From assembly GCF_007750395.1 (NCBI RefSeq), contig NZ_CP036281.1, positions 3,371,001-3,435,000 on the forward strand: a stretch of 64,000 bases of DNA. Direction: 5' to 3'. The stretch's first letter is position 1, and every line of letters starts with the position of its first letter. The notes under the pieces were generated by a model. That model was not told the DNA's origin, ran no database searches, and was given only the letters and a program-made list of their open reading frames with translations. A program made the translations under genes and the position numbers. Below are positions 23,022-41,467 of the stretch, piece by piece. Origin of the DNA: Polystyrenella longa. GTDB taxonomy: Bacteria > Planctomycetota > Planctomycetia > Planctomycetales > Planctomycetaceae.

Positions 23022-24293
23022 ATGACCGAGCAACGGATGGCAACCTGGCCTCGACAGCTTGGATTAACCCTGGCAATAACACTGGTTGCTTTTGCATCTG
23101 GCTGTGTTCACAAGGGGGCTATTCCGGTCCGTCAAATCCCTCCGCAGTTACGGGAAGAACCCCTTAATAACGAGGTCCCTATCGACTTCACGTTATTGCG
23201 TCAGACACCACCTAAACGACACATCCTGGATTCAGGCGACGTCGTCGGGGTTGTGATCAAAAGCATTCTCGGAAAAGAGAACGACGCAACGGTGGTCTTA
23301 CCACCTAACGAACTGCAACCCAATGCATCAGCCGGTCGTCCTTATACGATTAGCGATGAGGGAACTATTTCCCTGCCCATGGTTGGTGACTTAAACATAG
23401 GCAACATGACGATTGCGGAAGCGAACAGAGCTCTTGCAACGGCCTATTTTGAGAATGGGTTGTTGAACGAAAATAACGCAGAGATCGAATTGCGACTCGT
23501 TCAAGCTCGAAAAATCCAAGTACACGTCATGCGAGAGGATTCCGATAGCTCACTGCCATTGGCAATCCGCTCTGACCAGCAGTTCTATGTCAAACGCGGT
23601 TCTTCGATGATCGTCGAACTTGATGTATACCAGAATGACGTCCTGCATGCTCTTCAAGAGAGTGGTGGACTTCCGGGTATCGACGCCAAAAACGAAGTCT
23701 GGATTATTCGTGGTAAAGATTTGACCACGATTGAATCAAGCCAATATGTTCAACGTCTTTCGGAACGCAACGCCTTCGGCGGTTCTGATCCGTCAGACCT
23801 GGAACGACGAGTTACACGCATCCCGCTCAGTATGTCACCTAATCAGGACCTGAACCTGAGCGAAGAGGACATCATCCTGAATGATGGCGATATTCTCTTC
23901 ATTGGTAAACGAGATACCGACTTCTTCATCACTGGGGGACTTATCGATGGAGCCAGAGTCCCTTTGCCTCGAGATTACGATGTTGATGTTCTGACTGCCC
24001 TGGCAATGGCCAACGGTAACCCATTAGGACCTGCAGCTGGTGCCCGTTCGAATAACTTCCAGCTTGGACCGGGGAACATTCTTCCTCCAACCCGTCTGAT
24101 TATCGTACGCCAGTTACCCAGTGGGGATCAGATCAAGATTCTCGTCAACTTAAAACACGCGGTCGAAGACGAACACGAAAGAATCAAGGTACTGCCAGGC
24201 GACTTGTTGATTCTGGAATACACCAAATCGGAACTATTCCTGAACGTCATGTTGAACCTGATCAACCTGAACTTGTCACTGGACCAGATATAA
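23022..24293 (+). CDS. Polysaccharide biosynthesis/export lipoprotein (Wza-like)
   Basis: A 423-residue outer-membrane polysaccharide-export protein. The lipobox FASGC (Cys28) follows a hydrophobic signal. The PES domain spans about 62-155, with HILDSGDVVGV at its start and ISLPMVGDLNIGNMTIAEANRAL inside it. Two SLBB-like beta-grasp segments follow (about 155-300 and 300-400), the second including FFITGGLIDGA. The C-terminal hydrophobic stretch (about 403-420) may correspond to the amphipathic pore helix of Wza. Wza-type proteins form octameric channels for capsule or exopolysaccharide export. A GGAG ribosome-binding site lies 7 nt before the ATG. It sits between a lipoprotein and a BBP7 barrel; the usual Wzc/BY-kinase partner is absent nearby. 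Confidence 0.9.
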   Translation: MTEQRMATWPRQLGLTLAITLVAFASGCVHKGAIPVRQIPPQLREEPLNNEVPIDFTLLRQTPPKRHILDSGDVVGVVIKSILGKENDATVVLPPNELQPNASAGRPYTISDEGTISLPMVGDLNIGNMTIAEANRALATAYFENGLLNENNAEIELRLVQARKIQVHVMREDSDSSLPLAIRSDQQFYVKRGSSMIVELDVYQNDVLHALQESGGLPGIDAKNEVWIIRGKDLTTIESSQYVQRLSERNAFGGSDPSDLERRVTRIPLSMSPNQDLNLSEEDIILNDGDILFIGKRDTDFFITGGLIDGARVPLPRDYDVDVLTALAMANGNPLGPAAGARSNNFQLGPGNILPPTRLIIVRQLPSGDQIKILVNLKHAVEDEHERIKVLPGDLLILEYTKSELFLNVMLNLINLNLSLDQI

Positions 24294-26445: not shown

Positions 26446-28224
26446 TCAAGCCCGCGACTGTCGGAAGTAATACCAGCCCGGAACCCAGAAGCTGACAGCG
26501 GCTACGACACCAAACAGAGAGATACTGAAGTCGAACGGGCTATGCATTGAAATCAGTTGCATTAAAACGCCTGTCACAAACAACGCTGCCGACTGAATAT
26601 AAAACGCCCCGGTAAGAATGCCCGCCTTGACCAGGAAGACGCAGCCAGAAATAAATCCCAGAACTGGCGAGAGCGACAGCACCGGCAAATCCATTGCGTA
26701 TTCAAGCCAGAAAAGCAACATGCTGGCTATTAAGGAACCGGTCCAGACATGCGCAATCTGTCGCTCTACAAACGTCACCGGTCCAGACCGTCTCCGTGCT
26801 GACCAGAAGATACCACTCCAGACCCACAGTCCTACGCACCAGATCGAAAGATAAGGGAGACGTGTTTCGAAATCGAAGTATTGCAGCACATTGGTGATCA
26901 CACAGATCAGCAGTAATACCAGACTGTGCCACATCCAGAGTAATCCCCAATTTTCCAACACGGGGGCATGATGGGTCTCACGAAACATCCTCAACCAGAT
27001 TTGTGAGAAGTGTGATGTTCGAGCGGCGATCGGCTCATCATTCAAATACGCCTTCAAATCGGCTTCTAACTCGCGGGCCGATTGATATCGTAGCTCCTGT
27101 GGCTTCTGTAAACACTTCAGGAGAATGAGTTCCAGATCCCGATCAATTTCCGGGTTCAATAATCGCGGTTGAACTGGCTCCTGTTCCAACACGCGCATGA
27201 GTACTTCCAGAGAGTTTGCCCCTTGAAATGGAGCTACGCCGGTCAGCATCGCGTACAGGACGGCCCCCAAACCGTAGACATCGGTTGTTTCATCCAGCGA
27301 TTTGCGATTTCCAGCGGCTTGCTCCGGAGCGAGATATCCAGGTGTTCCCAGTACTGCCCCTGTCATCGTGAGACGTGTCGGACCAGGTTCTAATTCTGTG
27401 ACTTCAGAAGAGGTTCCGCCGGCTGTCATTTCGTAACGACAGGCCAAGCCGAAGTCGCTGACATACGGGCAACCATGCTGATCAATCAGGATATTACTCG
27501 GTTTCAAGTCGCGATGTAATATTCCCCGTTGATGAGCTTCTGCCAATGCCCCGGCGATACTAACCAGCAGGGCCACCGCGTCGCGGTTCGACAATGGGCC
27601 CTTGTATAACCGCTCGGCAAGATTGGTCCCTTCGATCATCTGCATCGTGAAATAGGGATGACCATGAATCTCACCGACTTCATATACGGGTACGATATTT
27701 GGATGATGAAGCTGTCCTGCTGTCTCGGCTTCGATTTGAAAACGGGATCGTTCCTCTAATGATGCCAGCGCCCCCTGTGAGATCATCTTCAAAGCGACAG
27801 TTCGATTGATACCAGCCTGTCGCGCTTTATAAACAACTCCCATTCCCCCTCGGCCGATCTCCTCCAGCAACTCGTAATTACCGACTCGATTTACAACGGG
27901 ACGATCTTCGGACGGAACTGCACCGGATTGGGGATTATCTGCAGAAGCCTTTTCGGTGGGTCGATCCAGGAAATAGTCCTGAGAAGAGGCGAATGAGGGG
28001 GGAACTGGCGTAGGATCGTTCAACTCCAATTGGGCGAAGTCGACGATCTTCAAAGTCGCCCACAATTCTTTCAGGTCATCGCTGAACTCGGGATGTGCCG
28101 ATGTCAACTGACTCAACTTCGACTCGGACGGATTCTCCATCAACTGCTCTAGCAATAGGGAGAGTTGATCCTCATCGCTCGATGATTCAGAGGTATTTGA
28201 TTTATCTGCTCCAGATTCGGTCAC
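26446..28224 (-). CDS. Serine/threonine protein kinase with C-terminal transmembrane helices
   Basis: A 592-residue kinase. An acidic N-terminal region (1-110) contains a helical segment reminiscent of zinc-finger-less anti-sigma-like leaders seen in planctomycete kinases. The Hanks-type domain spans about 117-375: Gly-rich loop IGRGGMGVVYKA, catalytic Lys146 in VALKM, HRDLKPSN with Asp239, DFG at 257-259 and the GTPGYLAPEQA activation segment. All catalytic residues are present. Residues 425-590 form about five or six hydrophobic helices, so the enzyme is anchored in the inner membrane with the kinase in the cytoplasm and no large external sensor. Targets are unknown. It is convergent with the BBP7 gene across a shared terminator. 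Confidence 0.93.
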   Translation of the reverse strand: MTESGADKSNTSESSSDEDQLSLLLEQLMENPSESKLSQLTSAHPEFSDDLKELWATLKIVDFAQLELNDPTPVPPSFASSQDYFLDRPTEKASADNPQSGAVPSEDRPVVNRVGNYELLEEIGRGGMGVVYKARQAGINRTVALKMISQGALASLEERSRFQIEAETAGQLHHPNIVPVYEVGEIHGHPYFTMQMIEGTNLAERLYKGPLSNRDAVALLVSIAGALAEAHQRGILHRDLKPSNILIDQHGCPYVSDFGLACRYEMTAGGTSSEVTELEPGPTRLTMTGAVLGTPGYLAPEQAAGNRKSLDETTDVYGLGAVLYAMLTGVAPFQGANSLEVLMRVLEQEPVQPRLLNPEIDRDLELILLKCLQKPQELRYQSARELEADLKAYLNDEPIAARTSHFSQIWLRMFRETHHAPVLENWGLLWMWHSLVLLLICVITNVLQYFDFETRLPYLSIWCVGLWVWSGIFWSARRRSGPVTFVERQIAHVWTGSLIASMLLFWLEYAMDLPVLSLSPVLGFISGCVFLVKAGILTGAFYIQSAALFVTGVLMQLISMHSPFDFSISLFGVVAAVSFWVPGWYYFRQSRA

Positions 28225-28385: not shown

Positions 28386-29528
28386 ATGAATAAAATCCTC
28401 GCTCTCAATCCATTTCATGGTGGTAGCCATCGAGCATTCTTAAATGGTTGGATGAAACGCAGCTGGCACCAGTTCTCAGTCAATACGTTATCCGCCCATC
28501 ATTGGAAATGGAGAATGCGGCATTCGGCGTTTCATTTTGCGGACGCCTTCAGTGACGAATTCAAAACTTCAGATAAGGCTTTGGACTACGATGTGCTTTT
28601 CTGTACGGACATGCTGAATCTGGCCGAGTTTCGAGGACTTGCCCCTCCCGCTATTCGGAACCTACCGGCGATCCTTTACTTTCATGAGAATCAGCTCACC
28701 TACCCCGTGCAGGAAGAACGCGAGCGCGATTTGCATTTCGCTTATACGAATTTCGTTTCTGCTTATTCCGCTGAGTCAATCTGGTTCAACTCGGAATACC
28801 ATCGAGATGAGTTTTTGACTGCTCTCGAAGAATGGTTGCCGAAAATGCCAGATGCGAACTCAATAAAAGCAACAGTGGCCAGCCTCTGGGAGAAAAGTGA
28901 CGTTCATCATCCGGGAGTAGACACTCCGCCGTCGCCACCAGTAAGTCGATCAGAACGAAATGTCCCCTTGCAGCTGCTCTGGGTTTCCCGATGGGAGCAC
29001 GATAAAGGCCCCGAAATATTCTTTGAATCTCTACGACTCCTGCAGCAGTCAGGCGTTCCTTTTCGAGTGAGTATACTGGGAGAGTCCTACGAGCAAGCAC
29101 CGACTGTATTTGAAGAGGCCAAACGGACCTTCCCCAATGAAATTCTGCATTGGGGTTATCTAGAGAATTATGCCGAGTACCAGAAAACATTAAGTGAAGC
29201 CGATGTTGTTCTCTCTACAGCCCGACACGAGTTTTTCGGGATCGCCATTCTCGAAGCTGTGGCCGCCGGTTGCCGGCCGCTGGTTCCCCGAGCTCTCGCT
29301 TATCCGGAAGTCTTACCCGAAGAAGAATCATTTTTCCATCACAACGACCCGGCTAAAATCGCGGAGTTCCTTGGTTCTTACGCGGCCAATTTGAATGCGA
29401 ATCGAGTGCGGGATGATGTCATGAGAGAGAGATGGTATCAATTAGTCAGCCAGTATGGGTGGAATCAAGGCGTCCCGCGGATGGACGCCGCCGTCGATCG
29501 AGTCGTCAGTGAATGGAATCAGGGCTGA
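28386..29528 (+). CDS. DUF3524 glycosyltransferase, tRNA-queuosine alpha-mannosyltransferase-like (QTMAN/GTDC1 family)
   Basis: A 380-residue GT4-type glycosyltransferase. The N-terminal DUF3524 domain (about 1-165) shows the family pattern NPFHGGSHRAFL, then HHWKWRMRHSA, FCTDMLNLAEFRG, YFHENQLTYP and WFNSEYHRDEFL. The C-terminal GT-B domain starts at LLWVSRWEHDKGPE (about 200) and carries the acceptor/donor segment ARHEFFGIAILEA (about 282-295). The human homologue GTDC1 (QTMAN) mannosylates queuosine in tRNA-Asp; the same reaction in this bacterium is inferred from family membership. Simple glycan synthesis is the alternative. Divergent from the kinase gene, with about 160 bp between. Confidence 0.82.
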   Translation: MNKILALNPFHGGSHRAFLNGWMKRSWHQFSVNTLSAHHWKWRMRHSAFHFADAFSDEFKTSDKALDYDVLFCTDMLNLAEFRGLAPPAIRNLPAILYFHENQLTYPVQEERERDLHFAYTNFVSAYSAESIWFNSEYHRDEFLTALEEWLPKMPDANSIKATVASLWEKSDVHHPGVDTPPSPPVSRSERNVPLQLLWVSRWEHDKGPEIFFESLRLLQQSGVPFRVSILGESYEQAPTVFEEAKRTFPNEILHWGYLENYAEYQKTLSEADVVLSTARHEFFGIAILEAVAAGCRPLVPRALAYPEVLPEEESFFHHNDPAKIAEFLGSYAANLNANRVRDDVMRERWYQLVSQYGWNQGVPRMDAAVDRVVSEWNQG

Positions 29529-29704: not shown

Positions 29705-31996
29705 ATGCTGGAACGTTCTCGTCAAAATCCGCTGTTTCATCCAATTGCGATTCTCATGGCGGGGCTCGCCTTATCCATTGGCTGGGGCATCCGTGGTAAT
29801 TATGGCCACGAAACGGGCGCGATGATGCCAGGACTGCTGACAGGAATCGTCGTCTGCCTTTTCTCTCAACGAGAAGACTGGCGCGAACGCGTCGCCTACT
29901 TCGCTCTATTCGGAGCATTGGGCTGGGGCTTTGGTGGATCAATGTCCTACATGCAGATCCTCGGGTTCACCCATTCAGGGCACTTCCCCTCTCAGATCTA
30001 CGGTTTCTACATGCTCTTTTTCCTTGGTTTCCTCTGGGCTTGTCTCGGGGGAGCGGGGACTGCAATTCCGGCCGTCTACTCGCGGAAAGAGTTAACAGAC
30101 CTCTGCAAACCTCTGGGCTTTCTGGTCGGCGTCTGGATCATCATCTTTCTATACCGGGTTCCGCTGCAGACTTCCATCCAGGACCTGCTGCATGAACCCG
30201 ATGTGCAAGACGCAATGAGCCGTCACGCCTATGCCGTGTACTGGCTCGATTCAGACTGGTTACAAGTGTTGTTTGTTATAGGATCTCTGTTGGCGTTCGA
30301 CTTCTTCAACAAACGATATGAAAAAGGTTTCCTGATTCCACTCTGTGCCGCCGGGTTCGCCATTCTAGGAACGCTGGTTGCAAGTGTGATCCAGTTCTTC
30401 CTGACCGACGCTATTGACTCCTGGAACTTGAATCTGTCTCAATATTTCTACTTTTCCCCCAAGTTCCTCGGAGCAGTATTGGGCGCAGTCGTAGGAATCA
30501 ACCTGTTTCATCGCCGAGTGGGCATCCAGAAAAAAGAGAACGTCGAAGGGGCCTGGATTCTCGCCACTTTTCTACTTATGGGTTTGGTTGTTGGTGGAGT
30601 GCTTCAGGCTTTCTCCGATGCGTCAGGTTTGTCGGATGCATTCGCACGAGTTCTGGTTCGGTATTTCGGGGACCAGTCCCAGTATGACTTGGATGAACTT
30701 ATCTTTAACTGGCCCAACTTTACGCTTTACGTGCGTGACTACCTGGGGTTGATCTTCGGAGCGATGGTCGGCATTGGGATCTACTTTTATAAATATGGTG
30801 AATTCGCCTTCGGTTCGAAACTCTTCCTCTACATGGCTTGCGGTTGGTTTGCTGGTTTCCTGTTTTTCCCCGTCATCCTGGACCTGCGTCTAACTCCTCC
30901 CCGTGGAGATAACTGGGCCGGTATTCTGGGGACCTATGCGGGAGCCGTAATCTACTTCCTGCGACATCAGAAAAAGGAGATCGTCACTGCCTCCGTGATC
31001 TGTGGAATGATTGGCGGAATTGGATTCTCGGGTATTGCCTGGCTCAAACTCATGCTGGTTTCCATCGGCAGCCCCAAACTCGCTACTCTACCCGGTTGGG
31101 CAGAGACTTGGACGGAGTGGCAGAAAACAGCCGATCGTACTCAACCTACGCTGACTCCCAGCCCTGAATACCAGGCTTATTACGAAAACGTGGTGCAGCC
31201 TTATCTGCAAAGCTGGCAACATTGGCAGCATCAAAACTGGCATAGCTTCCTGGAGCAATCCTATGGATTCGTCAACGGCGTAGGAGTAATCATTGCCATG
31301 GCGATACTCCTACCCCGAGTTGCCCCATTGAATAACAGCAGTCCCCGCAAAAGGTGGACGGAAATCCTGGCATTGATGGTAAGTGTCGCCGCCGTAACCT
31401 ACCTCAACCTGCGTAAAAACATTTCAGGCTGGGTGCGGGATGAAATCATGGAACCTGAAATGAAGGCCCCCTGGTTCGAAAGCATTTCTTTCTCGGCCGA
31501 TGGTTGGTTCCTCTTCTTCTATCTCTTCGGAAGCCTCGCCTTCCTGTACTTGCTGCTCCAACATAAAAAACAGCGAATTCCCATCGTCCCTTCGACTTGG
31601 CTGGGGCGCGGTCAACTTCTGTTTGTGATTACCTGTTGGATTCTGGTTTCTGCCAACGTATCACATGCTTTGCCCGGATTCCGTGATCAACGGTTGTTAA
31701 CGGAAGGAATCATCACGATCAATGCCATCATTTTAACCGTCTTTCTGCTGACTGTCCGCCGCGAGAGTTTATTCATTAATCCTCAGCAGGCAATTGAGAC
31801 TAACTGGAGCAACCTCCTTTGCAAGTCCGTCTTCGTCTGCGTAGTTGTCGCGGCCCTGTTACCCCTCTTTGAGACGGCAACGATCCGCATGGTTTACGGC
31901 GATGCTCATGCCGGGCATTCCGGAGAGAACTTTCGATTCGGTCCCAAAGCGGACTGGAAACACAAACCGAATCTGAAGAGTGAGAAACATCAGTAA
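29705..31996 (+). CDS. Large polytopic membrane protein, unknown function
   Basis: A 763-residue protein I do not recognise. Hydrophobic helices run almost throughout: about 17-35, 39-56, 62-80, 95-120, 133-152, 190-208, 215-240, 255-275, 290-310, 345-365, 375-395, 405-420, 430-455, then a hydrophilic Trp/Gln/His-rich loop (about 460-515) and six more to about 740. This gives roughly 16-20 membrane passes. Conserved-looking pieces are GWGIRGNYGHETGAMMPG near the N terminus and GDAHAGHSGENFRFGPKADW near the C terminus, both Gly/His-rich and likely functional. It may be a transporter or membrane-embedded enzyme; no known family motif was found. It is convergent with the sulfatase, 19 bp away. 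Confidence 0.8.
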   Translation: MLERSRQNPLFHPIAILMAGLALSIGWGIRGNYGHETGAMMPGLLTGIVVCLFSQREDWRERVAYFALFGALGWGFGGSMSYMQILGFTHSGHFPSQIYGFYMLFFLGFLWACLGGAGTAIPAVYSRKELTDLCKPLGFLVGVWIIIFLYRVPLQTSIQDLLHEPDVQDAMSRHAYAVYWLDSDWLQVLFVIGSLLAFDFFNKRYEKGFLIPLCAAGFAILGTLVASVIQFFLTDAIDSWNLNLSQYFYFSPKFLGAVLGAVVGINLFHRRVGIQKKENVEGAWILATFLLMGLVVGGVLQAFSDASGLSDAFARVLVRYFGDQSQYDLDELIFNWPNFTLYVRDYLGLIFGAMVGIGIYFYKYGEFAFGSKLFLYMACGWFAGFLFFPVILDLRLTPPRGDNWAGILGTYAGAVIYFLRHQKKEIVTASVICGMIGGIGFSGIAWLKLMLVSIGSPKLATLPGWAETWTEWQKTADRTQPTLTPSPEYQAYYENVVQPYLQSWQHWQHQNWHSFLEQSYGFVNGVGVIIAMAILLPRVAPLNNSSPRKRWTEILALMVSVAAVTYLNLRKNISGWVRDEIMEPEMKAPWFESISFSADGWFLFFYLFGSLAFLYLLLQHKKQRIPIVPSTWLGRGQLLFVITCWILVSANVSHALPGFRDQRLLTEGIITINAIILTVFLLTVRRESLFINPQQAIETNWSNLLCKSVFVCVVVAALLPLFETATIRMVYGDAHAGHSGENFRFGPKADWKHKPNLKSEKHQ

Positions 31997-32015: not shown

Positions 32016-33470
32016 TTACTTGGTCAGTTTCAGTCCGCGAACATTCGCTCCCTGGACCTTCTGAAGTTGATCTCCCAGATCAGCCCGGGCTGCATCCGCA
32101 TATTTCTTCAGCTTCTGGACGATCTCTGGATGCTGATCGAGGACATTGTGGCTTTCGCTAATGTCTTCATCCAGGTTGTACAACTCCAACTCTGTTTTCG
32201 GATAGTTCTGTTTACCGGGTAGGCCTTCCTCTCCATGGACCAAAACGTGGCGATACGAATGTGGAAAATGCAATTTCCAAGGTCCGCTACGAACGGCATG
32301 AAGTTCATTCACCCAGTAATAGTAATAAACCTCATGAGGAGTTCGAGCCTCCGGTTCATCCAGCAAGAGCGGAAGGATATTCAAACCATCGATTTTCTCC
32401 TCAGGTAAATCTGCGCCGACGATGCCGGTTAGCGTTGGCAGAATATCGATGGTGGCGGCCAACTCATGGCACGTCGTTCCGGATGGGATGTGTCCCGGCC
32501 AACTCATCACACAGGGAACCCGAACTCCCCCTTCCCAAGCCGTTCCCTTTCCTTCTCGCAACGGATGAGCCGATCCTCCGTGGGGGCCATAAGAGAGCCA
32601 CGGTCCGTTATCTGAGGTAAAGATCACGATCGTATTTTGATCGAGCTGCAAGCGTTTCAAAGTCTCCTGGATTTGTCCGACTGACCAGTCGATCTCGGAA
32701 ATGACATCGCCATACAATCCACGCTCTGTTGTTCCAGCGAACTTTTCGCTCGCAAAGATAGGCACATGCGGCATGGAGTGAGCCAGATATAAGAAGAAGG
32801 GTTGTTTCTGGTTTCGCTCGATGAAGTCAATCGCATGTTCGGTGTACCGCTTGGTCAATTGCGACTGATCCGGATTAAGCTCGACAACCTTCTCGTCTTC
32901 AATAAGGGGTAGCGGAGGATACCTATCACCTGCAGTCGGGTGCTTCGGCCACATGTCGTTTGAATACGGAATTCCGAAGTATTCATCGAATCCATGGCGA
33001 GTCGGCAGGAACTCAGGAGCATCACCCAAATGCCATTTACCAAAGTGAGCCGTGGAGTAACCACGCTGTTTGAAAATCTCCGGGAGTAAAGTTTCCTCTG
33101 GATTGATCCCGTCCTTTCGCCCCGGTCCGAGAGCACCTCTGATTCCTATACGGTTGGGATAACAGCCCGAAAGAAGTGCCGCTCGCGAAGCCGAACAGAC
33201 CGCCTGAGCGACGTAAAAGTTCGTAAATATCCGCCCGTCAGCTGCCAGTTGATCGATATGCGGTGTTTCGAAGCCTTCGGCCCCAAAGCAGCCCAAATCG
33301 GCGTATCCCTGGTCGTCCGTGAAAACTATCACCACGTTTGGCAGTGTATTTGCTTCTTCAGCCTGAAGTTCTGTCACTTTCAAACTGGGACTGGCAAGTA
33401 CTGAAAAACAGACCATTTTGCAAAGAAAACTAAATCGATTAAGTATTGATTTGAAGCCAAGTTGGGACAT
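32016..33470 (-). CDS. Type I sulfatase (arylsulfatase family), exported
   Basis: A 484-residue sulfatase with an N-terminal signal (about 12-38). The metal site TDDQGYADLG (Asp52, Asp53) and the formylglycine motif CSASRAALLSG with Cys92 are intact, and GKWHLGD and the later TSDNG motif supply further active-site residues. The CxASR form, with Ala in place of Pro, still fits the recognition pattern of formylglycine-generating enzyme. Planctomycetes carry many sulfatases to desulfate marine polysaccharides; the substrate here is unknown. No carbohydrate-active partner gene is adjacent except distant surface-glycan genes. The C-terminal domain appears complete, so it is expected to be active in the periplasm. 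Confidence 0.93.
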   Translation of the reverse strand: MSQLGFKSILNRFSFLCKMVCFSVLASPSLKVTELQAEEANTLPNVVIVFTDDQGYADLGCFGAEGFETPHIDQLAADGRIFTNFYVAQAVCSASRAALLSGCYPNRIGIRGALGPGRKDGINPEETLLPEIFKQRGYSTAHFGKWHLGDAPEFLPTRHGFDEYFGIPYSNDMWPKHPTAGDRYPPLPLIEDEKVVELNPDQSQLTKRYTEHAIDFIERNQKQPFFLYLAHSMPHVPIFASEKFAGTTERGLYGDVISEIDWSVGQIQETLKRLQLDQNTIVIFTSDNGPWLSYGPHGGSAHPLREGKGTAWEGGVRVPCVMSWPGHIPSGTTCHELAATIDILPTLTGIVGADLPEEKIDGLNILPLLLDEPEARTPHEVYYYYWVNELHAVRSGPWKLHFPHSYRHVLVHGEEGLPGKQNYPKTELELYNLDEDISESHNVLDQHPEIVQKLKKYADAARADLGDQLQKVQGANVRGLKLTK

Positions 33471-37462: not shown

Positions 37463-38386
37463 ATGCAGGCTGAACCTGTCATTGAAATCAAAAAACTGAC
37501 GAAGATTTATCGGGACTTCTGGGGTCGTCAGAAAGTTCGTGCGTTGAATTCGCTCAGCCTCGACGTGAAAAAAGGGGAAGTATTCGGTCTTCTCGGTCCA
37601 AACGGTTCGGGCAAAACCACGACGATGAAATGCCTGCTTGGCCTTCTATTCCCGACATCCGGTGAAATTTCTGTGTTGGGTCGCCCCGCCAACGACGTAG
37701 AAAAGAACGAGCGTATCGGATACCTGCCGGAAGAATCCTATCTCTACCGCTTCTTGAATGCGGAAGAAACACTCGATTTCTACGGTAGACTATTCAAGAT
37801 TTCTGCCGCAGAACGACGTGAACGAACACAGCAGCTGATTGAGATGGTTGGGTTGAAGAACGCCCGTCGTCGCCAACTCAAAGAGTATTCCAAAGGGATG
37901 ACTCGCCGAATCGGCCTGGCTCAGGCACTGATCAACAATCCGGATCTGGTGATGCTGGACGAACCGACCTCCGGTCTCGACCCCATCGGTACCCGCGAGA
38001 TGAAAGACCTGATCATCCAACTGAAGGAACAGGGCAAGACAGTCATCATGTGTAGCCACTTGCTGGCCGATGTTCAGGACGTCTGTGACCGAATCGCGAT
38101 TCTGTACGGTGGAGAGCTGAAAGAATTGGGAAATGTCGAAGACCTGATCCAATCCAAAGAACAGACCTGCATTACTTCGACAGAGCTTCCAGATGAAGCG
38201 ATCACCGAGATTGATGCAATCCTGAAGAAATACAATGCAGAGAAGATCTCCGTCGAACATCCGTCGACCAACCTCGAAGAACTCTTCCTCAAAACGGTTC
38301 AGGAAAGTATTGACCGTCCGGGACAACGCTTCGTACCGGCCAATGACGGCGACAAAAACCAGGAACCCGTTTCAACGGAATCCTGA
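37463..38386 (+). CDS. ABC transporter ATP-binding protein (GldA/CcmA-like)
   Basis: A 307-residue ATPase. Walker A is GPNGSGKTT (about 45-53), the Q-loop lies near the GYLPEES segment (86-92), the signature is [15 protein letters not shown] (142 onward) and Walker B is [13 protein letters not shown] (162-174), with the H-loop His in MCSHLL. The SKGM signature is typical of the CcmA/GldA/NatA exporter group. The C-terminal 75 residues are an accessory domain. It drives the permease encoded 121 bp downstream. A role in gliding-type or lipid/peptide export is suggested by homology only. Confidence 0.92.
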
Positions 38387-38507
38387 CCTTTTTGATACAT
38401 CCAATTCCTGTTCCAGTCTGGATACTTCTCCACACCACTATCGACATATTCGGCCAAATCCCAAATCAGAGATGGGATAGCTGGAAACACCTCTCCGGAA
38501 CTCACTG

Positions 38508-40121
38508 ATGACTTTTGAACCGATTCCCTACGATATTTCCGAAGGATTTCTGCACTTCCTGTATGCGTTCTTTGGCTTCGGGCTGATGATCGTTCTACTG
38601 GGAGTGTTTGTGACTCGTCTGTCGATGGGCACACGGGGACCAAAACTCGTTCTGCAGCAACTTAAAGACGGATTACACGAAATTACCAGTCTCTCCTTGA
38701 AGAGAATCATGGCGATTGCGACCCTCACGTTTAAAGAAGCAGCACGTCGCAAGGTGTTTTACATCATCATACTGTTTGCCCTGCTGTTTATGTTCGCGAA
38801 CTGGTTCCTGTCGATGTCCGACCAGCGAACGGACTTTCAGATTGAAGTCTACGTCAGTTTCGTATTAACCGTGATCAGCATCCTAGTCATCCCGATTGTC
38901 CTGCTACTTTCCTGCTGGGGTATCCCAGAGGATATTCGTCAGCGTTCCCTACACACGGTGGTCACGAAGCCTGCTCACCGGATGGAAGTAGTGATGGGAC
39001 GTATTTTTGGATTCGTCGGTATCGGCAGCATTCTACTACTGTTCATGGGCGTCATCGGCTACTTCTGGATTATGCGTGCATTGCCTGTCGAAGCACAAAA
39101 TGATTTAGCTTGTCGAGTTCCCGTCTATGGCAAACTCTATTTTATCGATAAAGACGGCAACGAAACAAAACGAGGGATTAACACCGGAGACCAATGGGAC
39201 TTCCGTTCTTATATTGAAGGGGCAACCAAAGGTCGTGCCATATGGACTTTCAATGACTTTGACTCCAGTGCAGTTTCACCCAATGAGCCTCTCCAAGTCG
39301 AAACTCGCTTTGAAGCATTTCGAACATACAAAGGAAATATTGAAGACACCTTGCAAGTGGAATTAACGGTAGTCAACAACGACAACCAGACTCGCGTGCG
39401 GCTGACCCCCTTCCCTTTACGAGAGTACACTTTCAACCTGGTCGAAATTCCACAAACGCTCAAGGTTTACGACGACGAACAGGGCAAGGAGATCGAATAC
39501 AATCTCTCCAAAGATATCCTCAGTTCGGAAAGTGGTTTCAGTCTCGAAGTCCGCTGTCTCGACTCACAGCAATATATCGGGATGGCAAATCCCGACTTGT
39601 TTATCAGGCTTCCGGACCGTGCGTTTATCGTCGGTTTCAGCAAAGCGATTTTCGGACAATGGCTGTTACTAGTCTTAATTGTTTCAATCAGCGTAGCCCT
39701 CAGTTGTATGGTGAAGGGACCAATTGCCACGATAGCAACAGTAGCACTACTCATGATCAGCTTCATGTTCTCCGGTGTGCTGAATGAACAAATCACAGGT
39801 CGAGCTATCGGTGGTGGTCCAATGGAATCCCTCTATCGAATGATTTCGCAAACGAATGAAACATCTCGTTTACCAGCGGATGACACAATCGCCCAAATCG
39901 CATTAAGCCTCGACCCGATCTTCTCCAACATGCTTTGGATTGTTAAACATATTATTCCAGATATGAGTAGCTTCAGTATGGCGGAATACCTGGCAAAAGG
40001 ATTTGACGTTAATGCGAGTGCTGCAATCATTCCTTCTATCGCAGTAACACTTAGCTATTTCCTGGTTTCCGTAATTGTCGGCTACTACTGTCTTAAACTT
40101 CGTGAGCTCGAATCAAAATGA
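38508..40121 (+). CDS. ABC-2-type transporter permease with large periplasmic loop
   Basis: A 537-residue membrane protein. A first helix (about 17-38) precedes an amphipathic charged segment, then helices at about 80-100, 115-140 and 165-190. A large soluble loop (about 195-375) follows, then four more helices at about 380-400, 405-430, 490-505 and 510-530. The RRKVFYIIILFALLFMFANW and SLHTVVTKPAHRMEVVMGR segments are typical of GldF/ABC-2 permeases. The loop, with a strand pattern (VETRFEAFRTYKGN), would be outside the inner membrane. Its stop overlaps the start of the next gene by four bases (ATGA), so the two are translationally coupled. Confidence 0.88.
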   Translation: MTFEPIPYDISEGFLHFLYAFFGFGLMIVLLGVFVTRLSMGTRGPKLVLQQLKDGLHEITSLSLKRIMAIATLTFKEAARRKVFYIIILFALLFMFANWFLSMSDQRTDFQIEVYVSFVLTVISILVIPIVLLLSCWGIPEDIRQRSLHTVVTKPAHRMEVVMGRIFGFVGIGSILLLFMGVIGYFWIMRALPVEAQNDLACRVPVYGKLYFIDKDGNETKRGINTGDQWDFRSYIEGATKGRAIWTFNDFDSSAVSPNEPLQVETRFEAFRTYKGNIEDTLQVELTVVNNDNQTRVRLTPFPLREYTFNLVEIPQTLKVYDDEQGKEIEYNLSKDILSSESGFSLEVRCLDSQQYIGMANPDLFIRLPDRAFIVGFSKAIFGQWLLLVLIVSISVALSCMVKGPIATIATVALLMISFMFSGVLNEQITGRAIGGGPMESLYRMISQTNETSRLPADDTIAQIALSLDPIFSNMLWIVKHIIPDMSSFSMAEYLAKGFDVNASAAIIPSIAVTLSYFLVSVIVGYYCLKLRELESK

Positions 40122-41467
40122 TGAACCTCAGTTCTAAACAACGTAAATTCAGCTACATGTTAGCAATTGTAGTTCTATTAGTATTCATTCTGTGGCTGGG
40201 GCAACCCGCCAGTCGGAATAATCCTGGAGGTATACTTGCGCAGAAGCGGCAGGAGCTGAATCTCAGCCAGTCGACTCTCGGAGACGTAGAACCATCCAGT
40301 GCAATCATGAAGGTTGTGCTTCTCGGTTTTCGCGGCGTCGCGGCCGACCTGTTATGGGTTCAAGCCAAGGAGCAGGAAAAGAAAAAAGAGTGGGGTAAAT
40401 ATCGTGCAACCACAAACACCATTCTCTTGCTGCAACCAAACTTCGAAGATGTCTGGCGATACACTGGATGGGATTTTTCTTACAACGTTTCTTCGCAGTG
40501 GGACGACGTCAAAGACCGTTACTACTGGCTGAAAGAAGGTGGAAAGTTTCTTCGAGAAGGTGCTGATCAAAATCAATACTCGGCTGCGATTCAATGGGAC
40601 ATCGGGCGTGTACTTGGTCAAAAGATTGGACTCGCAGACGAACGAAACTATTTTAGAGAGTACTTCCGTCATGACCCCGATCCTCAGTTCGAAGGCGAAA
40701 CTGACCTTTCATTTAACCCGAAAGGGATCAACGACAACTATCTCGCTGCAAAGCAGGACTTCATCATTGCCAATGACCGGGAAGAAGAGTTCGGGCAGAA
40801 CATTATGAAGTCACCACTTTTCCGAATCTCTGCAACGAAATCAGTAATCAATGCCGCCTCAGCAATGCAGCGGGAAGGAGTCTTTGACCGTCCCCGCCAA
40901 TTGTGGTCAGATGCTCGTGAAGAGTTACTTGGTGACGAGTTCGGAAAATATAACTTCTACTCCCAGGAGGGCCATTATAATCTCATGGCCACAGACGAGG
41001 AGATAGAGAAACTGGCAATCGAAAACTCAGAGACTGTTGGACGCGAGATCAAGCCTAAGGACATAAAAAACGTCATCGAGTACTTTAAAACACAGTCTCA
41101 GTTTGACTACTGGCTGTTGAGATGCGAAGCAGAACAAGACGAAATTACGATGAAAGCGCACGAGGACGTATACCTCGGTAAGAAAAAGTTTCAGGAAGCC
41201 GATTGGGATGCCGCAATGGAATACCTGCAAAATGGGATGAAAGGATTCGATCAAGTCATTAAGAAGTATCCATCCTATGTTTTAGGTGACACAGAGAAGC
41301 TCGATGAAGTATTGGAATCGGTATTGTACTGGTCTTTTATCTACGAGAACTCTCCGAAATACGGTCTTAAACCCGCTACCTATCCTCTTAAAGATCTATG
41401 GGACCAGAACCTGGAACACATCATTGGTTTGAACCAGCGGTTCCGAATTGACAACCAGTTGAATTAA
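40118..41467 (+). CDS. Anchored helical-repeat protein coupled to an ABC transporter, unknown function
   Basis: A 449-residue protein starting inside the permease stop codon (ATGA overlap at 40118-40121). One transmembrane helix at about 14-27 anchors it, followed by a Pro/Asn-rich linker and a mostly helical, charged periplasmic region. GFRGVAADLLWVQAKE (about 69-84) and the LLLQPNFEDVWRYTGWD segment suggest TPR-like repeats; a C-terminal FQEADWDAAMEYLQNGMKGFDQVIKKYP segment looks like a further TPR. I know no named family. Its coupling to the ABC genes implies that it is a dedicated partner of the transporter. A strong bidirectional terminator ends the operon. Confidence 0.82.
   Translation: MMNLSSKQRKFSYMLAIVVLLVFILWLGQPASRNNPGGILAQKRQELNLSQSTLGDVEPSSAIMKVVLLGFRGVAADLLWVQAKEQEKKKEWGKYRATTNTILLLQPNFEDVWRYTGWDFSYNVSSQWDDVKDRYYWLKEGGKFLREGADQNQYSAAIQWDIGRVLGQKIGLADERNYFREYFRHDPDPQFEGETDLSFNPKGINDNYLAAKQDFIIANDREEEFGQNIMKSPLFRISATKSVINAASAMQREGVFDRPRQLWSDAREELLGDEFGKYNFYSQEGHYNLMATDEEIEKLAIENSETVGREIKPKDIKNVIEYFKTQSQFDYWLLRCEAEQDEITMKAHEDVYLGKKKFQEADWDAAMEYLQNGMKGFDQVIKKYPSYVLGDTEKLDEVLESVLYWSFIYENSPKYGLKPATYPLKDLWDQNLEHIIGLNQRFRIDNQLN

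Follow-up and report, generated by a model that had tools for sequence, protein, structure and literature searches.

A QTMAN-family glycosyltransferase gene in Polystyrenella longa

The window, i.e. the whole 64,000-nucleotide stretch at C1:3371001–3435000 of the Polystyrenella longa genome that was analysed, contains at 28386..29528 on the forward strand a gene for a 380-amino acid QTMAN-family GT4 glycosyltransferase, recognised from its reading frame, from matches to PF12038 and Glycos_transf_1 and from an AlphaFold2 model. The open reading frame is intact, with an ATG at 28386 and a stop codon ending at 29528, one frame read on the opposite strand of the same interval carries many stops, and the frame is confirmed as real. 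The N-terminal domain, QTMAN_N (residues 3–178, 28392..28919, forward strand), matches the complete PF12038 profile (positions 1–168 of 168) with 190.8 bits, where the cut-off is 25, and an E-value of 2e-56, a sequence similarity that far exceeds chance. The first-pass annotation had placed the protein in the GTDC1/QTMAN family on the basis of four motifs, PFHGGSH (residues 9–15), WKWRMR (40–45), YFHENQL (98–104) and WFNSEYHR (133–140); this assignment holds, as all four are present and fall within the full-length Pfam match. Pfam already names PF12038 ‘QTMAN_N, tRNA-queuosine alpha-mannosyltransferase N-terminal’, so the label itself is not new and the question is what it means in bacteria. 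The P. longa genome (6,125,480 bases in a single contig, 99.95% complete) has a single QTMAN_N match.

QTMAN_N is presumably the acceptor-binding half of the GT-B fold. The C-terminal half is a GT4 nucleotide-sugar binding domain (residues 195–327, 28968..29366, forward strand), with 47.4 bits to Glycos_transf_1 over these residues and 43 bits to Glyco_trans_1_4. A further family, PF20706 (GT4-conflict), is also above its cut-off (32.9 versus 26 bits) over residues 172–296 only, far weaker than PF12038 in this protein; in the 74-sequence family alignment described below, PF20706 is matched by 68 members and PF12038 by all 74, the window protein included. These C-terminal similarities raise the possibility that the enzyme is a GT4 protein for a cell-surface or small-molecule acceptor, to which the label derived from the animal enzyme is not transferable: the C-domain resembles polysaccharide GT4 enzymes, it is similar to the solved MshA, BshA, SenB and tetrahydrobiopterin glucosyltransferase, and the GT4-conflict match points the same way. 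However, the most specific part of the protein is the N-domain, the half that determines acceptor choice in GT-B enzymes (190.8 bits, compared to 47.4 for the C-domain), and none of the NCBIfam exopolysaccharide equivalogs (EpsE and others) comes over its cut-off, the best reaching 35.1 of the 400 bits required.

Conserved residues and predicted fold

Conservation was read from two alignments. The larger, A2, holds 74 sequences, the window protein and 73 of the 80 loci of a GTDB contig scan, leaving out six loci missed by the motif filter (L088, L094, L097, L101, L103 and L109) and one that contains N (L072); the smaller, A1, holds 18 of the 29 non-window loci from a search of the phylum, leaving out loci at contig ends, those missed by the motif filter, one with an uncertain start (L006) and one nearly identical to another row (L022). 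In A2, 27 positions are invariant, although the filters and scan patterns select for GSH, WKWRM, FHEN and RWExDK and the invariance of those motifs is therefore partly built in. Within the N-domain, constraint is strongest at GSH 13–15, WKWRMR 40–45, HENQ 100–103, YP 106–107, D115 and N135. The GGSH loop (residues 12–15, 28419..28430) has G13, S14 and H15 invariant, where the filters required an [ST/C]H motif; in the partly pattern-selected WKWRMR motif (28503..28520) W40, W42 and R43 are invariant, as are H100, E101 and Q103 in the partly filter-selected FHENQ motif (residues 99–103, 28680..28694). Two motifs of the C-terminal half complete the picture, all of these features lying on the forward strand. 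R202 and K207 are invariant in R202-W-E-H-D-K207 (28989..29006), a motif that the scan pattern covers, and are presumably the basic pair that holds the donor pyrophosphate in GT4 enzymes. E282 and E290, also invariant and presumably catalytic, form E282-x7-E290 (29229..29255), which corresponds to the EX7E signature of GT4 enzymes with a retaining mechanism.

An AlphaFold2 model built from the 74-member family alignment (mean pLDDT 95.2, pTM 0.92) predicts a GT-B fold with confidence. The solved structures closest to it all have the GT-B fold and belong to the GT4 type, with mannosyltransferases among these: sucrose-phosphate synthase (Z 32.2, rmsd 2.8, 341 residues aligned), MshA (Z 31.1, rmsd 2.8, 339 aligned), the methylmannose polysaccharide (MMP) mannosyltransferase 7qsg (Z 30.1, rmsd 3.0, 328 aligned), and two enzymes solved with GDP-Man, PimB' (3oka; Z 27.7, rmsd 3.3, 330 aligned) and PimA (2gej; Z 25.2, rmsd 3.9, 320 aligned). 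The model thus shares its predicted GT-B GT4 fold with PimA, PimB' and the MMP enzyme (Z 25–30, rmsd 3.0–3.9, 320–330 residues), which differ from it in having lipid or polysaccharide acceptors, at 15–17% identity, and whose sequence similarity to the QTMAN family profile, where found, lies in the donor half. The predicted GT-B fold alone specifies neither donor nor acceptor. No solved QTMAN structure was found by sequence search or among the fold matches listed, an absence that is no proof.

One of the structural matches bears on whether the acceptor is a tRNA at all. The tetrahydrobiopterin glucosyltransferase 9v0l is matched in sequence (E 1.3e-4) and in fold (Z 25.7, rmsd 3.1, 311 residues), as might be expected of an enzyme acting on free queuosine, queuine, another 7-deazaguanine or a pterin-like metabolite; since the similarity in sequence is confined to the donor domain (residues 196–310), we regard such a free acceptor as very improbable.

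Genomic context

The gene is flanked upstream by a divergent Ser/Thr kinase gene (26446..28224, reverse strand) and downstream, on its own strand, by a gene at 29705..31996 for a 763-amino acid protein that has no Pfam or NCBIfam match and no counterpart near the QTMAN_N gene in the relatives examined. Further along the window, at 37463..41467 on the forward strand, an ABC transporter ATPase is followed by two overlapping long reading frames without Pfam matches, a set which to our eye resembles a gliding-type ABC exporter.

Two other neighbours could be taken as signs of a cell-surface acceptor: some 4 kb upstream lies a polysaccharide-export gene (23022..24293), and some 2.5 kb downstream a sulfatase gene (32016..33470). 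Conservation of the neighbourhood was examined in relatives of the same family or class, on seven stretches with an intact gene and on an eighth that carries the remnant of G216; the window shares no neighbour with them except an S41 peptidase-like gene of G283. When neighbours were clustered for the best 80 of at least 570 stretches found by the contig scan, 72 loci fell into the cluster of the gene itself, and no other cluster exceeded eight loci, a size reached by sulfatases and by a frame running antisense to the QTMAN gene. Sulfatases are very common in planctomycetes, so their presence in eight of 80 neighbourhoods, which would otherwise favour a surface acceptor, may be chance. Nothing else recurs, and operon partners were accordingly rejected; no recurrent sugar-polymer gene cluster surrounds the gene among the best 80 loci, which show it to be an orphan outside any fixed glycan cluster. 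Given an N-domain far more specific than the C-domain, and seven intact relatives that share but one neighbour, a surface or small-molecule acceptor appears rather unlikely to us.

Genes of the queuosine pathway are as scarce in the neighbourhood. A tblastn search (E 1e-4) for TGT, QueA, QueG and QueH near the gene in the best 80 loci found one QueG, about 8 kb off, in L044, which is roughly the chance expectation. Many tRNA-modification genes are orphans too.

Queuosine genes and candidate tRNAs

The first-pass annotation had pointed to tgt, queA and queG as the genes to look for, and all three are found in the P. longa genome: TGT at C1:3044624–3045667, QueA at C1:3358517–3359572, about 40 kb from the QTMAN gene, and QueG as a domain match at C1:3692051–3692272. 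QueH was not found in this genome. From 47 tRNA hits, 30 loci were retrieved, in which ARAGORN identified tRNA-Asp (GTC), tRNA-Asn (GTT), tRNA-His (GTG) and tRNA-Tyr (GTA), the tRNA-Asp having the anticodon loop CTGTCGA (CUGUCGA). With queuosine genes and tRNA-Asp encoded together, the acceptor should exist. The genome is therefore not one that lacks the pathway, the outcome that would have spoken against the annotation, and this says little, as queuosine genes are near-universal in the phylum; the further suggestion that glycosylated queuosine occurs in this lineage is in keeping with these genes and with family membership, and their near-universality leaves it plausible only.

The extent of that near-universality is seen in a sample of 294 genomes of the phylum, with QTMAN_N in 52 and TGT in 274: TGT is present in 51 of the 52 QTMAN_N genomes and in 223 of the 242 without it (Fisher p 0.22). 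In a panel of 80 Planctomycetota genomes, 38 of them with QTMAN_N, G216 with its decayed copy being included here, and 42 without, QueA is found in 77 (36/38 and 41/42, respectively) and QueG or QueH in 79 (37/38 and 42/42). Within the panel QueG and QueH complement each other, 61 genomes having QueG, 18 QueH, none both and one neither; the last is G031, a 90% complete genome which has QTMAN_N. A similar picture is obtained outside the phylum. Among 34 genomes tested from the best 80 of the contig scan, mostly of other phyla, 28 have TGT, 29 QueA and 32 either, and in the deltaproteobacterial order of G308, where QTMAN_N occurs in 77 and TGT in 109 of 116 genomes, the two are not associated (TGT in 71/77 with QTMAN_N versus 38/39 without). 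Co-occurrence with TGT, QueA, QueG or QueH was thus rejected as proof of the substrate: the family is found in queuosine-making bacteria, but nearly all bacteria of those groups make queuosine.

Some genomes with QTMAN_N have incomplete sets of these genes. Four (G303, G316, G352 and G430) have neither TGT nor QueA. In the deltaproteobacteria G308, G310 and G318, which lack TGT, loss of queuosine was rejected as the explanation since QueA is kept in all three, and an assembly gap is likelier. Two Phycisphaeraceae, G077 (locus L045, 99% complete) and G220 (L044, 97% complete), have TGT, QueG, GluQRS and QTMAN_N and no QueA match, which would reflect either queuine salvage, an unrecognised replacement of QueA or an assembly gap in both.

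GluQRS as a competing modifier

GluQRS (YadB), the glutamyl-Q tRNA(Asp) synthetase of TIGR03838, likewise adds a group to the queuosine of tRNA-Asp and differs in being a synthetase paralogue that adds glutamate; this modification is described in PMC3542578. As it modifies the same base of tRNA-Asp, GluQRS should tend to exclude QTMAN_N if the latter acts there, and its depletion has more discriminating power as a test than co-occurrence with queuosine genes. It was not found in the P. longa genome, where the only TIGR03838 match is GluRS, scoring 433.1 with the gltX model (cut-off 289.95) and 194.9 with the GluQRS model, under the cut-off of 276.7.

The comparison was extended to 80 genomes from both groups, from which G216 with its decayed copy was left out (n=79). 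Loose calls were made on score and open-frame length, and 18 of the 20 positives were then typed by NCBIfam; all 18 scored higher with a GluQRS model than with gltX, and 10 passed a curated GluQRS cut-off. The other two positives, G087 and G231, were kept from a reading of their sequences, and a candidate in G133 was rejected after typing as GluRS. By loose calls GluQRS is present in 4 of 34 QTMAN_N genomes versus 16 of 45 without (nominal Fisher p 0.019). This depletion disappears when only matches over any one of the curated GluQRS cut-offs are counted (3/34 versus 7 to 9/45, p 0.50 to 0.22) and by the TIGR03838 cut-off alone (1/34 versus 2/45, p 1.0). In the family of P. longa, G216 aside, none of eight genomes with QTMAN_N has GluQRS and four of eight without it do (p 0.08), and the order of G308 alone gives no signal (1/14 versus 2/15). 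Three loci of that order, L153, L154 and L155 (in G395, G355 and G331), encode divergent GluQRS-like proteins that score 208–222 bits against the TIGR03838 cut-off of 276.7 and only 141–143 with gltX.

For phylogenetic pairing, 47 planctomycete genomes were placed on a GluRS tree, a quick search without bootstrap from which G012, G251 and G138 were lost because the motif missed their GluRS, and in which some genomes are represented by a second GluRS type. Pairs differing in QTMAN_N gave 0.0 in the same direction, 1.1 opposite and 7.8 without difference, and pairs differing in GluQRS 0.1, 1.9 and 2.0, respectively; neither result is significant. The anticorrelation has the expected direction and is a weak hint at most.

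Both genes occur together in G077, G220, G241 and G395. Such coexistence would be easier if the two enzymes used different tRNAs or different hydroxyls, and so lends itself to the possibility that queuosine is indeed glycosylated in the clade of the window protein, the sugar being a different hexose or the target being tRNA-Tyr, tRNA-His or tRNA-Asn. The tRNA-Asp loop of P. longa, which differs at positions 37–38 from that of E. coli, could be read in the same way; the remaining evidence on this possibility comes from the phylogeny of the family.

Distribution, loss and ancestry

At least 570 related stretches (stretches, not genes) were confirmed when GTDB contigs were scanned with a 19-row alignment. 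Among the titles of the best 80 are Planctomycetota, Zixiibacteriota, Deltaproteobacteria/Desulfobacterales, Acidobacteria, Nitrospirae, Polyangiaceae, Lentisphaeria, Saprospiraceae, Aureispira, TA06, GN15 and others; judged from these matches, the QTMAN family is not a planctomycete oddity and spans several bacterial phyla. No QTMAN_N match was found in 14 control genomes, E. coli included. Spread on mobile elements was considered and rejected, as 50,697 phage records gave no match and the viral and plasmid collections gave one weak match each, both in the GT4 half (residues 167–316 and 184–379, respectively).

As a rule there is one QTMAN_N copy per genome in the phylum sample. The window protein is 41–47% identical to relatives in its own family and class, and three members of its own family (L023, L025 and L026) do not group with it in the tree, with modest support of 80–87, which implies exchange, loss or fast evolution of the gene. 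In the genus of G216, where G216:C24:228–356 is a QTMAN_N remnant with stop codons, two sister species have no match and three have intact copies (compare G048, G069, G167, G227 and G291), and gene loss is in progress. Patchy presence and this decayed copy indicate that the gene is dispensable. In another genome, at G127:C1:1254105–1254603, QTMAN_N is split over two overlapping frames, possibly by a frameshift or a sequencing error.

The family trees, which are quick searches without bootstrap, divide 90 bacterial rows into clades of 27 and 63 with starred support, and the window protein lies in the clade of 63. When a provisional human GTDC1 row of 458 amino acids was added, all comparisons with which are approximate, it fell on a long branch in the smaller clade (28-row set, 99*). 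This provisional sequence keeps all 27 invariants of A2 and 33 of the 43 near-invariant positions, a lead only, and P0001 matches it at 43% over 158 residues and 36% over 153 residues. Provided that the human row is accurate, the split between the clades means that a shared function would cover the window protein only if it was already present at the base of the family, and the retention of every invariant favours such an origin. The same split could point to a different sugar or tRNA in the larger clade; as the 27 invariants are common to both clades, with the human row provisional, and one copy per genome is the rule, we consider that reading distinctly unlikely.

Proposed function

This planctomycete gene, whose genome also encodes queuosine genes, is a genuine and conserved bacterial representative of the QTMAN family. 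Its function is most likely glycosylation of tRNA queuosine, with mannose on tRNA-Asp as the first guess. The product would be a stand-alone, soluble, retaining GT4 enzyme that transfers a hexose, likeliest alpha-mannose from GDP-mannose, onto the queuosine of a GUN tRNA, likeliest tRNA-Asp, a reading to which we give a probability of roughly 0.56; we infer the acceptor, the sugar, the chosen tRNA and any effect on the decoding of Asp codons. In this scheme TGT would put preQ1 into the wobble position of the tRNA, QueA would then form epoxyqueuosine, QueG would reduce this to queuosine, and the QTMAN-family enzyme would finally glycosylate a cyclopentene hydroxyl of the wobble queuosine.

Glycosylation of tRNA queuosine is favoured by the full-length QTMAN_N match, the 27 invariant positions and a predicted GT-B model with GT4 mannosyltransferases among its solved neighbours, by TGT, QueA, QueG and queuosine-type tRNAs in the same genome, where the match to the GluQRS model is GluRS, by the loose-call GluQRS contrast and by the lack of a sugar-polymer cluster around the gene. 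It is weakened by the near-universality of queuosine genes and by QTMAN_N genomes without QueA, TGT or QueG/QueH, by coexistence with GluQRS and a contrast that fades with curated cut-offs, by the rarity of adjacent queuosine genes, by patchy presence with a decayed copy, and by the placement of the provisional animal sequence in the other clade. It is the depth of this last split that keeps our confidence from being higher.

The founding paper on QTMAN is said to be that of Zhao et al. (Cell, 2023). Like QTMAN (GTDC1), the window protein has a full-length QTMAN_N domain with a GT4 C-domain, and its genome has the substrate pathway genes TGT, QueA and QueG and tRNA-Asp. Unlike the animal enzyme, it comes from a bacterium that itself encodes queuosine genes, it has no inter-domain insert (380 versus 458 amino acids) and it appears to belong to a different main clade, as judged from the provisional human row. 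QTMAN and QTGAL have been described in human cells, the alpha-mannose being attached to the allylic 3-hydroxyl in tRNA-Asp (PMC12518689). For mass spectrometry, transitions of 572 to 163 and 572 to 295 are given for queuosine plus hexose, and of 410 to 295 and 410 to 163 for queuosine (PMC12313893). Two reviews place mannosyl- and galactosyl-queuosine in eukaryotes or vertebrates and glutamyl-queuosine in bacteria (PMC7694415, PMC12710937), the second of them restricting galQ and manQ to vertebrates and gluQ to bacteria. The open-licence literature, from which subscription journals are mostly absent, gave no account of a bacterial QTMAN or DUF3524 protein, and novelty is unproven. A further paper describes lectin-detected glycoRNA in E. 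coli (PMC12873605); as E. coli has no QTMAN_N match, this is a separate matter.

Implications

The sequence evidence suggests that some bacteria may also add a sugar to queuosine. A broader proposal, which we advance tentatively and at slightly less than even odds, is that glycosylated queuosine is widespread in bacteria through a large QTMAN family present in several phyla, with glutamyl-queuosine as the alternative in some, and that the animal enzyme derives from one bacterial branch. A bacterial QTMAN working like the animal enzyme would, if true, overturn the division between manQ and galQ in eukaryotes and gluQ in bacteria, would provide a genetically simple setting for the role of a wobble-base sugar in the decoding of Asp codons, and would point to the origin of the animal enzyme.
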